Assembly (NCBI RefSeq): GCF_003596405.1
Contig: NZ_QYUR01000008.1
Location: 1-64,000 of the forward strand
DNA: 64,000 nt
DNA from: Pseudomonas cavernicola
Lineage (GTDB): Bacteria > Pseudomonadota > Gammaproteobacteria > Pseudomonadales > Pseudomonadaceae
Direction: 5' to 3'
Every line of letters begins with the position of its first letter. Within the stretch, counting starts at the first letter, position 1. This document shows positions 15,630 through 63,875 of the stretch, one piece after another. The position numbers and the translations under genes are program-made. The notes under the pieces were generated by a model. It was not told where the DNA came from, did not search any database, and saw only the letters and a program-made list of their open reading frames with translations.

Positions 15630-15820
15630 ACAAAAGCCTGCGAAACAGACCGTGTGAAAACTCCAGCTCAATCCTGAGGTTCGTGTTGCTACGCGAAATC
15701 CTCAGAAGTTTTCCGAGCCGACTTGCTCAGAAAGAGCAAGGGAGCGCCAAACTTGATCATTAATTGATCAGGACTTGGCGCTCAAATAGTTTTCACACGG
15801 CCTGGAAAGCGGGCTTTTGT
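15630..15820 (+). terminator. prpD/AlaX terminator, split by an inserted element
   Basis: ACAAAAGCCTGC (15630-15641) and GCGGGCTTTTGT (15809-15820) form a 12-bp stem with one G-U pair. GAAA occurs on both sides of the insertion (15642-15645 and 15805-15808). Without the insert this is a tetraloop terminator, usable in both directions by the convergent prpD and AlaX genes. Confidence 0.8.
15646..15804. mobile_element. MITE-like element, copy E, in a terminator loop
   Basis: 159 bp bounded by CAGACCGTGTGAAAAC and GTTTTCACACGGCCTG (14 of 16 bases complementary) and flanked by the direct repeat GAAA. The ends match those of the IS1182-type element at 62246, but the interior differs from the other small elements. 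It has its own hairpin with arms GAGCGCCAA (from 15742) and TTGGCGCTC (to 15783) around two TGATCA palindromes. No open reading frame of note. Confidence 0.8.
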
Positions 15821-28612: not shown

Positions 28613-28842
28613 AAAACCCGGCATAACAGGCCGTGTGAAAACTACTGCGCTCGGTTATACGGCGTTAAAAACAGGCTCAAAATGCTCATTTACAACACGT
28701 AAACTGCGCTTTTGCGCCTGTTTTGACTCGCTGGCGCTCCCCCTTCGGTCCAGCCTGCGGCTGTTACTCCGCTCCGCTGCGTTGCGTCTTGTCTAACCTT
28801 CGCTCGCTACGTTTTCACACGACCTGGTAAGTCGGATTTTTT
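28613..28842 (+). terminator. rraA terminator, split by an inserted element
   Basis: AAAACCCGGC (28613-28622) and GTCGGATTTTTT (28831-28842) still pair over ten positions with one G-U and one mismatch. ATAA and GTAA flank the insert where the loop would be. The arms are less well matched than at the other insertion sites, which suggests an older event. Confidence 0.55.
28627..28826. mobile_element. MITE-like element, copy B (200 bp)
   Basis: Bounded by CAGGCCGTGTGAAAAC and GTTTTCACACGACCTG. Nearly identical along its length to copy D at 52837-53036. The interior holds a long hairpin (arms AAAACAGGC 28668-28676 and GCCTGTTTT 28716-28724) followed by a block (ACTCGCTGGCGCTC onward) that is missing from copy C. 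No coding capacity. Confidence 0.85.
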
Positions 28843-52110: not shown

Positions 52111-52250
52111 CAGGCTGTGTGAAAACGTAGCGAGCGAAGATTAGACAAGGCAAAAACAGGCGAAAATGCGCAGTTTACGTGTTGTAAATGAGCATTTTGA
52201 GTCTGTTTTTAACGCCGTATAACCGAGCGCAGTAGTTTTCACACAGCCTG
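52111..52250. mobile_element. MITE-like element, copy C (140 bp, inverted)
   Basis: Ends CAGGCTGTGTGAAAAC and GTTTTCACACAGCCTG are perfect 16-base inverted repeats. Read on the minus strand the interior matches copies B and D, minus a block of about 60 bp. Flanks ATGC and CTGC share three of four bases; CCCCA and TGGGG on either side form only a short stem. It lies between the divergent acnB and DUF1289 genes. Confidence 0.85.
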
Positions 52251-52817: not shown

Positions 52818-53055
52818 CACGAAAAAGCCGCCCGTTCAGGCTGTGTGAAAACTACTGCGCTCGGTTATACGGCGTTAAAAACAGGCTCAAAATGCTCATT
52901 TACACCGCGTAAACTGCGCTTTTTCGCCTGTTTTGACTCGCTGGCGCTCGCCCTTCGGGCCAGCCTGCGGCTGTTACTCCGCTCCGCACCGCTGCGCCTT
53001 GTCTAACTTTCGCTCGCTTCGTTTTCACACGGCCTGCGTTGGCGGCTTTTTCGTG
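52818..53055 (+). terminator. DUF1289/USP terminator, split by element D
   Basis: CACGAAAAAGCCGCC (52818-52832) and GGCGGCTTTTTCGTG (53041-53055) are perfect 15-base inverse repeats. CGTT occurs on both sides of the insert (52833-52836, 53037-53040) and was the loop of the original convergent terminator. Confidence 0.9.
52837..53036. mobile_element. MITE-like element, copy D (200 bp)
   Basis: Ends CAGGCTGTGTGAAAAC and GTTTTCACACGGCCTG, flanked by the exact 4-bp duplication CGTT. Almost identical to copy B over 200 bp. Hairpin arms AAAACAGGC (52878-52886) and GCCTGTTTT (52926-52934). Inserted exactly in a terminator loop. Confidence 0.92.
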
Positions 53056-62218: not shown

Positions 62219-62286
62219 GTCTCTGCCGCAAAAAAGGCCGCTTCTCAGATTGTGTGAAAACCTAGCGTTCTGATTGGTAGTTGAAG

Positions 62287-62318
62287 AAAATGCCCGCATC
62301 GAAAGATACGGGCATTTT
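62287..62318 (+). terminator. Inward-end terminator of the IS, before the transposase
   Basis: AAAATGCCCG and CGGGCATTTT pair, with an inner ATC-GAAA-GAT helix. It ends six bases before the transposase ATG, so cysS read-through would be stopped just before the gene. It may also mask the ribosome site. Confidence 0.85.
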
Positions 62319-62323
62319 TCGTT

Positions 62324-63748
62324 ATGGCGTACATCCAAGGAGAGGCGCGAGACCAGACCAGTCTGTTTCCGGTTTCGCTGGAAGAGTTGATTCCCGACGA
62401 CCATCTGGTCCGTGTGATCGATGCCTACGTGGCTCGACTGGACCTCAAGCTACTCGGGTTTGCCAAAGCCACTCCCAAGAGTACGGGGCGTCCTGCCTAC
62501 GATCCGGCGGACCTGCTCAAGCTGTACCTGTATGGCTATTTCCACCGCATCCGCTCCTCCCGACGCCTCGAAGCTGAATGCCTGCGCAACGTCGAAGTCA
62601 TGTGGTTGCTCAATCGGCTCAAGCCGGACTTCAAGACCATCGCCGATTACCGCAAGGACAACGGACAAGCGTTCAGCGCGACCTGTCGGGCCTTCGTGCA
62701 GTTTTGCCGTCAAGCCGGGCTGATCGCCGGAGAGTTGGTGGCCATCGATGGCAGCAAATTCAAGGCCGTGGCCTCAGCGCGTCGGCATGTGGATCTGAAG
62801 AAGCTCAAGCGTCAGCAAGAGAAGCTGGATAAGCGTATCGCCCAGTACCTGGCGGAGCTGGATGAGGCGGACAAGTCCGAAGCCAATGAGGCCGTTGACC
62901 GTAGTGCGGTAAAAACGGCGCTGGAGCGACTGCAAGCCAAACAGGCCGACAACCTGACTTGCCAAGCACTGATGCAGGCCCTGGAGCTTGAGCAATTCAT
63001 CACCACCGAGAGCGATGCCCGGATGATGCGTACCCCTCGGGGTGGGCGCGTCGCTTACAACGTGCAAACAGCTGTGGACGCCGAGCATTGCCTGATCCTG
63101 CATCACGAGGTCACACAGGACGGCAACGATACCCAGCAGCTCGAGCCGATGGCTAAAGCCGCCCAGTCCGAGTTGCAGCAGGACGTGCTGACGGTCACTG
63201 CCGATGCCGGTTACTCCAACGGCGAGCAGTTCCAGGCATGCGAAGATGCCGGCATTACCGCCTATGTGCCGCCCAACCGGGCAGTTAACAACCGGGGTGG
63301 TGATACGCAGCTGTTCGAGCGAAGTGATTTCACTTACGACGCAGAGAGCGACCAGTACCGCTGTCCGGCAGGCAAGTTGCTGACGCTCAAGCAACTGAAT
63401 CGCGGGGAGCGTATCTACCACGCGGCGATCAGCGACTGCAGCGCTTGCCCGCTCAAGGCACAGTGCACCAACGCCCAGCGTCGCTACCTGAGACGCCATG
63501 CCCACGAGGCGGCCTTTGAGCGAATGGAGCAGCGGCTGCAGGCGCAGCCCGAGATGATGGCGAGTAGGCGATCCATCGTCGAGCATCCATTTGGCAACCT
63601 CAAACAATGGCTATTTGGTAATGGTCGCTTCCTGCTTCGCCAATTGAAGGGAGCACGAACCGAAATGGCCTTAGCGGTACAGGCCTATAACCTCAAAAGA
63701 GCGATCAACGTGCTCGGCGCACGCCACCTCATCGGATTGATGGGCTGA
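62324..63748 (+). CDS. IS1182-family transposase
   Basis: A 474-residue DDE transposase. The N-terminal domain (EARDQTSLFPVSLEELIPDDHLVRVIDAYV region) and the DUF772-type stretch are typical for the family. Catalytic candidates are Asp in VAIDGSKFKAVA (near residue 142), Asp in TVTADAGYSNGEQF (near 292) and Glu in RSIVEHPFGNLK (near 424). A cysteine-rich insert (CPAGK ... CSACPLKAQC) lies between the last two. The frame is intact and full-length, so it is probably active. There is no clear ribosome site, since the terminator hairpin occupies its place. Confidence 0.93.
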   Translation: MAYIQGEARDQTSLFPVSLEELIPDDHLVRVIDAYVARLDLKLLGFAKATPKSTGRPAYDPADLLKLYLYGYFHRIRSSRRLEAECLRNVEVMWLLNRLKPDFKTIADYRKDNGQAFSATCRAFVQFCRQAGLIAGELVAIDGSKFKAVASARRHVDLKKLKRQQEKLDKRIAQYLAELDEADKSEANEAVDRSAVKTALERLQAKQADNLTCQALMQALELEQFITTESDARMMRTPRGGRVAYNVQTAVDAEHCLILHHEVTQDGNDTQQLEPMAKAAQSELQQDVLTVTADAGYSNGEQFQACEDAGITAYVPPNRAVNNRGGDTQLFERSDFTYDAESDQYRCPAGKLLTLKQLNRGERIYHAAISDCSACPLKAQCTNAQRRYLRRHAHEAAFERMEQRLQAQPEMMASRRSIVEHPFGNLKQWLFGNGRFLLRQLKGARTEMALAVQAYNLKRAINVLGARHLIGLMG

Positions 63749-63783
63749 TACAGCCTTTTTCTCCCCTGGGTCCGCACACAGCA

Positions 63784-63810
63784 AAACGCCCCGAACCAGT
63801 CGGGGCGTTT
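63784..63810 (+). terminator. Terminator at the right end of the IS
   Basis: AAACGCCCCG and CGGGGCGTTT pair around AACCAGT. It is 36 bases after the transposase stop and within the element. It stops the transposase transcript and shields against folD-side read-through. Confidence 0.85.
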
Positions 63811-63875
63811 GCTTGGTCAACCATTAGTACGTTTTCGCACAGCCTGTTCTGCGGCCTTTTTTGCGTCTGTACGGC

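Follow-up and report, generated by a model that had tools for sequence, protein, structure and literature searches.

IS1182-family insertion sequences of a Pseudomonas clade mostly occupy terminator hairpins, in the majority of these with the hairpin loop duplicated

The element and its insertion site

The window analysed here is a stretch of 64,000 nucleotides from Pseudomonas cavernicola (contig NZ_QYUR01000008.1, positions 1 to 64,000), in which an insertion sequence (IS) of the IS1182 family, 1601 bp long (62246..63846, forward strand), splits the terminator between two genes that we take, from their translations, to be cysS and folD. The left arm of the host terminator stem occupies 62227..62241, the 14 bp at 62228-62241 reading GCAAAAAAGGCCGC, and is followed by TTCT (62242..62245), the left copy of a duplicated tetraloop that constitutes the target-site duplication. 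On the far side of the element stand the right copy of TTCT (63847..63850) and the right arm (63851..63865), which comprises 14 bp at 63851-63864 and the additional position 63865; all of these features are given on the forward strand. The first-pass annotation of the window had placed the IS exactly inside a terminator tetraloop with TTCT on both sides, and its coordinates are exact; the perfect 14-bp stem that it described is borne out too, and extends to 15 bp once the pair 62227/63865 is included. When the element and one TTCT are removed, the empty site would read CGCAAAAAAGGCCGC-TTCT-GCGGCCTTTTTTGCG, a symmetric terminator.

The IS is bounded by 16-bp terminal inverted repeats, CAGATTGTGTGAAAAC at 62246..62261 on the forward strand and CAGGCTGTGCGAAAAC at 63831..63846 on the reverse strand, and these ends, together with the 4-bp duplication, agree with the terminal inverted repeats and short target duplication of the IS1182 family. 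The transposase gene (62324..63748, forward strand) encodes a protein of 474 aa that matches the IS1182 family model NF033551 at 442.8 bits (cut-off 270) and the Pfam models DUF772, DDE_Tnp_1 and DDE_Tnp_1_6 above their cut-offs. D142, D294 and E420 are invariant in an alignment of 19 sequences and presumably constitute the DDE catalytic triad; a PDB sequence search with the transposase returned no relative at E <= 1. Two subterminal hairpins, both given on the forward strand, lie inside the ends. The left hairpin (62286..62319) has 15 positions per arm, a GAAA loop and a T-run, is terminator-like, and lies just 5' of the transposase start; the right hairpin (63784..63810) reads AAACGCCCCGA-ACCAG-TCGGGGCGTTT. 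At 62290-62324 the transposase start follows a few bases 3' of the left hairpin, and no ribosome-binding site is evident there. The left hairpin contains an ATG that is out of frame in the window; by eye, certain relatives (L116) have it in frame.

The P. cavernicola genome contains seven intact copies of the IS, each in the tetraloop of a different terminator; six are flush with the loop and one is displaced by a single base. Among 20,000 random positions drawn from 360 kb of the same genome, 22 had a tetraloop stem with a score of at least 21 flush to a 4-bp frame, and against this background the binomial probability of six flush copies in seven is about 1e-17 (calculated by hand).

Insertion sites across the Pseudomonas clade

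Among 298 genomes of the genus, P. cavernicola included, 63 contained matches at E <= 1e-100, with at most five candidates scored in each genome, and 43 complete or nearly complete relatives with transposases 71–80% identical were fetched, partial copies being left out. Sixteen further loci were added from a scan of GTDB contigs (from among the best 80 of that scan). L154 (at a contig end, without a right end), L189 (flank too short) and four duplicates were removed, which left 60 distinct sites, including the seven of P. cavernicola. A site was scored as a hairpin when the hairpin score was at least 16 and the hairpin edges lay within 3 nt of the duplication, and 50 of the 60 sites qualified, among them L152, which has no duplication. 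A second batch was drawn from all 72 left ends of a single type that the 16 genomes of the first fetch other than P. cavernicola contain, one contig-edge end being left out; 29 previously unused copies were fetched, seven of which had no right end in range, and all of the 22 complete copies lie in hairpins. Both sets together place 72 of 82 sites in hairpins, the second representing new sites in the same hosts, such that the two sets are not independent. A duplication of 3–6 bp is found at 77 of the 82 sites, and both arms are present at all 72 hairpin sites. The expectation that most copies of the family would lie in hairpins is therefore upheld for this clade.

In a tree of 87 rows, inferred by a quick method, these elements (hereafter clade A) are joined at 99% SH-aLRT, and several hairpin-targeting sisters fall between them and a second group (clade B) that is considered below. 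The tree is used for clade A only: L194 and L215 have absurd branch lengths, which are probably bad extractions, and some clade B rows labelled as hairpins are GGCC-type sites.

A run of T4 or A4 within 24 nt on the proper side accompanies 55 of the 60 first-set sites, compared with 331 of 5000 random positions. Runs occur on both sides at 32 sites, on the left only at 12 and on the right only at 11, and of the 55 sites with a run, 54 have a T4 run that starts 5–9 bp away from the edge of the loop. Only 46 of 1344 background hairpins have a T/A run and, because hairpins without one are far commoner (1298), terminators are preferred as targets; selection against insertion into genes must also contribute to their enrichment.

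The placement of the element at the stem-loop junction can be read from the duplication edges alone, with no hairpin chosen. At 38 of 56 first-set sites at least five perfect pairs are flush with both edges of the duplication, and when the frame is moved by 1–3 bp this number falls to 0–2 of 56. Across the 70 hairpin sites of both sets at which 3 bp or more are duplicated, the duplication is the exact loop in 48 cases; relative to the hairpin axis it is centred in 54, half a base off in nine and one base or more off in seven. Duplications of 4 bp fall on even and odd axes in the ratio 49:5 and those of 5 bp on odd and even axes in the ratio 11:3 (Fisher p 8e-7, both sets), and the second batch alone (14:3 and 2:1, p 0.14) is too small to decide. 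Copies of G098, all 1602 bp long, have duplicated 4 bp three times and 5 bp once, and copies of G064 have duplicated 4 bp ten times, 5 bp three times and 3 bp once, both lengths being found within the 1596-bp and within the 1607-bp copies. Another transposase variant as the source of 5-bp duplications was rejected, given that copies of the same length in one genome produce both. Among clean 5-nt loops at the duplication, seven have a 5-bp duplication and two (L157, L397) a 4-bp one; where the loop is 6 nt or longer, 4 bp are mostly kept and there is no matching duplication (L143, L150, L402, L404, L411, L184), and the 6-bp duplication of L155 includes the closing pair of a 4-nt loop. The stagger looks flexible at 4–5 bp, with 3 or 6 bp being rare, and in most cases it is centred on the axis; it does not look to be set freely by any loop.

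Empty sites were read in relatives at five of these locations. The best-matching relative (G027) has, in the gap between cysS and folD (L300), the same GC stem with a single loop, TGAT, and it has tetraloop terminators at two more of the P. cavernicola sites, with loops ATCT and TTCG (three of three sites consulted, by eye); in relatives further removed, these sites carry different terminators or none that is recognisable. At L140, where 5 bp are duplicated, ten of 15 relatives combine a loop of 5 nt with an identical or very similar stem, and the other five have loops of 3, 4 or 8 nt. Six of nine relatives are readable at L146, and five of the six, both of the closest among them, have a 5-nt loop. 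In the best-matching readable relatives, the terminator at the empty site still has just one short loop, as the first-pass annotation had anticipated.

Ten of the 60 first-set sites fail the hairpin threshold, of which four come from G237, and another, L139, is flush with a score of 14. The G237 element (L132-L136) occupies REP-like CTGCC-GMAG-GCTGCG sites or non-hairpin sites and has an imperfect left hairpin; a further G237 copy without a right end (L417), left out of the set, also has a REP-like left flank. Two G237 copies have reciprocally swapped flanks, GCAG/GAAG and GAAG/GCAG, which is the signature of recombination between copies. Duplications are absent at five of the 82 sites (L135, L136, L152, L180 and L410) and from the sister elements L192, L194 and L195. 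Terminator-like hairpins with matching arms, and with differing letters at the expected duplication, are seen at L192, L194, L195, L152 and L410. Recombination between copies residing in similar terminators may account for sites that have matching arms and no duplication.

Pairing and letters in two sister clades

When the arms of clade A targets were re-paired between sites, the number of complementary positions among the first ten fell from 8.14 to 5.47 ± 0.19 (2000 permutations, about 14 sd), and the observed pairing at each of arm positions 2–7 lies above the maximum of all permutations. Since the complementarity of true arms exceeds that of permuted arms, complementarity is itself a property common to the targets. 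Arm sequence as the main cue in clade A was rejected by this test, which leaves sequence as the cue in clade B. The claim that targets are recognised by structure and not by sequence is strongly supported for the IS and its clade by the hairpin counts, the slide test and the permuted arms, and the permutation and slide tests describe a target of the IS1272 type, an inverted repeat without sequence consensus.

Clade B, the control, has transposases about 42–50% identical to that of the window, with one representative (L052) in the P. cavernicola genome; like clade A, it belongs to the IS1182 family and has similar 16-bp ends and symmetric targets. Its 71 distinct sites comprise 58 with a 4-bp duplication, two with 3 bp, one with 6 bp and ten with none, the last number being increased by some ends that were called 1–2 bases off. 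GGCC, GACC or GGTC make up 51 of the 58 4-bp duplications, within a palindrome of preferred letters that is roughly GNCNGCTWTC-GGCC-GAWAGCNGNC; none of the 82 clade A sites has one of these words, set in a GNCNGC-type palindrome in clade B, as its duplication. Permutation of the arms brings no change in clade B (5.02 vs 4.88 ± 0.17), and none of the 58 sites has five pairs flush to the duplication. Permutation lowers pairing in clade A and not in clade B, and therefore one branch of the IS1182 family reads pairing and the other reads letters. Clade B loci (L052, L056, L158-L174, L197-L253) come from hosts that range from Nitrospirota to Pseudomonas.

Small elements in the window had also been described as insertions into terminator loops. 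This stands for a 159-bp miniature element with similar ends (15646..15804), which lies in a terminator stem of 12 pairs, including one G-T, with the loop GAAA, and for a 200-bp element (52837..53036) in a 15-bp terminator stem with the loop CGTT; the hairpin around another 200-bp element (28627..28826) is a decayed terminator, ATAA/GTAA. A 140-bp element with similar ends (52111..52250) had been overlooked, and its flanks are weakly complementary and off register. The rule that all small elements of the window obey hairpins is not upheld genome-wide, where 38 paired miniature elements comprise seven in terminator-like hairpins, 15 at GGCC/GGTC/GACC-type sites (five of which score as hairpins as well) and 16 at neither kind of site. 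The good cases in the window are real, yet they are no fair sample and constitute weak evidence for structure targeting. From the likeness of the ends of clades A and B we infer that both transposases move miniature elements, which probably have two drivers.

Subterminal hairpins, proposed mechanism and known systems

In most clade A elements the axis of the left hairpin lies 57–58 bp from the end and that of the right about 49.5 bp from the end, and the left hairpin stands directly 5' of the transposase start. Both hairpins covary within the clade: in a set picked by hand, of 12 left and 14 right versions, paired cells amount to 98.4% and 91.8% respectively, two-sided changes occur at four pairs in each hairpin, and the covariation score is reached by none of 500 shuffles on either side, the shuffles ignoring relatedness. 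Two weaker covariation measures are unremarkable for the right hairpin (22 and 157 of 500 shuffles). Sisters beyond the clade that occupy hairpin sites (L192-L196, L237, L255) possess subterminal hairpins with other stem sequences. A left-hairpin score of at least 29 is seen in 49 of the 56 elements that occupy hairpin sites, and one of at most 25 in 51 of 51 at GGCC-type sites, the left hairpin of clade B being weak; strong hairpins at the right end also occur in certain Pseudomonas elements that target sequence.

The core of the right hairpin (63786-63808) is letter-identical to a recurrent, terminator-like hairpin of Pseudomonas, with 57 matches in 17 of 38 genomes (for example, L359, L364 and L372), which reflects either capture from the host or convergence. 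At 26 of the 30 loci fetched from these 57 matches, no element end with up to two mismatches lies within 400 bp; the possibility that the free-standing hairpins are relics of elements was rejected for this reason, and they look like ordinary host terminators. The two hairpins of the element would serve as terminators that replace the split one, protecting both the transposase gene and neighbouring genes from read-through, with the left hairpin shielding the transposase from outside transcription. They may have a second role as structures bound by the transposase.

We consider it highly probable that this clade of IS1182-family DDE elements targets the folded terminator hairpin, and that the loop is duplicated by joining at the loop edges. 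The target would be the DNA of a terminator hairpin, as a cruciform or a partly extruded palindrome; the element's two 3' ends would be joined to the loop at its 5' edge, one on each strand, and gap filling would duplicate the loop and leave one whole stem arm on each side. The DNA would have to be extruded when insertion happens, and the loop would set the stagger. It counts against this that a full cruciform puts the two loops at opposite tips, which is awkward for a single transpososome. A more complete account would have a DDE transposase with a target-set stagger read the extruded hairpin without sequence preference and join at the stem-loop junctions, resulting in loop duplication, while the terminator hairpins at the element's ends would have co-evolved in the clade to make insertion transcriptionally neutral and might double as transposase recognition structures; we regard this account as evenly poised between being right and wrong.

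The transposase might instead read the letters of double-stranded terminators (C before and G after the cuts, a GC-rich core and A/T tracts 5–9 bp out), the hairpin being incidental. C does adjoin the duplication in 50 of 56 left arms, T4 runs are regularly spaced (54 of 55 sites), and sister clade B clearly reads a sequence palindrome; however, a transposase that read each half separately would be blind to the match between arms, which at positions 2–7 exceeds every one of the 2000 permutations, and could not favour 5-bp duplications on odd axes with copies of one element, which makes this reading improbable. Insertion at random, with survival only in harmless terminator regions, would benefit from the intergenic position of terminators, where an insertion probably does little harm, but edges exact to the base are beyond what selection can produce, a slide of 1 bp removes the fit, and flush tetraloops with scores of at least 21 occur at only 22 of 20,000 random positions. 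Random insertion combined with selection was rejected by these slide and random-position controls, which found base-exact placement at the stem-loop junction, and its probability is close to negligible.

Transcription termination could itself be the cue, if a paused RNA polymerase, an R-loop or local supercoiling opened or extruded the palindrome and the transposase recognised the complex. We think this unlikely: the T/A runs at 55 of 60 sites would suit it, given that background hairpins without runs are far commoner (1298 vs 46), and it is compatible with the reading of an extruded hairpin as an upstream step, but it is the DNA loop, rather than the U-tract, that the edges follow, the distribution of run sides (32, 12 and 11 of 60) requires no single orientation, and terminators are also enriched by selection against gene insertions. 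We are doubtful, with somewhat more sympathy, of the proposal that the subterminal hairpins are transposase-binding structures and not insulators, and that the target hairpin mimics them, one mode of hairpin binding serving donor and target alike. Their fixed axes in most clade elements, the presence in the sisters of hairpins with different stem sequences, the division of left-hairpin scores between hairpin and GGCC-type sites, and the relaxed targeting in G237, whose element is the only one of the clade to have an imperfect left hairpin, all favour such a role, but the G237 correlation has n=1, strong right-end hairpins occur in some sequence-targeting Pseudomonas elements as well, and the right core, being a recurring host terminator-like hairpin, suits a terminator role, the two roles not being exclusive.

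Group IIC introns and IS1111-attC elements are mobile elements that target hairpins, at terminators and attC sites, and they differ from clade A in being a retrohoming intron or in having a transposase of another family; we know of no loop duplication in either. Hairpin targeting as such is already known within the IS1182 family, a point that the first-pass annotation had left undecided. The staphylococcal IS1272/TnSha1 is reported to target hairpins of unrelated sequence, without a sequence consensus (PMC4923244, PMC5678879), and five of its seven sequenced targets are terminators confirmed by RNA-seq, with deletion and no duplication (PMC4923244). IS1272 is described as replacing the stem-loop, some of its targets not being hairpins, and loop duplication is sketched in that account as no more than a hypothetical alternative (Fig 13, pathway c; PMC5678879). 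Palindrome targeting by other members of the family is credited to Siguier 2015, as cited in PMC4923244, and hairpins at 72 of 82 sites give clade A the same habit. In these accounts IS1272 removes some or all of the hairpin without any duplication, whereas clade A keeps both arms (at 72 sites) and duplicates the loop, with duplications at 77 of 82 sites, and so does not display stem-loop replacement of the IS1272 type. The IS1272 transposase is about 22–23% identical to that of the window. ISPpu9, found in REP sequences of Pseudomonas putida, resembles clade A in its host genus and in being inserted in palindromes, which are reported to be REP sequences rather than terminators (PMC8450116).

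Loop duplication with a length that follows the loop, the Pseudomonas clade and paired internal terminators were not found in the literature covered, which extends little into subscription papers and ISfinder, and they may have been described before. What appears to be new, with good support from comparison of the sequences, is the loop-duplicating mode, a stagger that is both flexible and centred, a sister clade that reads sequence, and the pair of putative internal terminators. Hairpin recognition by DDE transposases was previously inferred from staphylococcal cases that destroy the target, and here the target survives to the base. Dozens of copies in easily handled Pseudomonas make cruciform sensing by a transposase directly testable in the cell, the duplication providing a readout of the loop. 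If the proposed mechanism is true, these elements could be used as natural probes for terminators that become extruded in the living cell, and the pair of internal hairpins would account for the ability of an IS to insert behind many different genes while transcription stays insulated.

The P. cavernicola genome also holds a rearranged eighth copy, the flanks of which are the arms of the window copy's terminator. On contig 8 (G000) the transposase-folD side is present three times, at 62326-67989, 76342-81614 and 81680-87301 (L279, L280 and L062), with one inverted and an identity of about 96%. At 80451-83189 of this contig, two 3' parts of the IS stand head to head, bounded by two copies of the same terminator arm.
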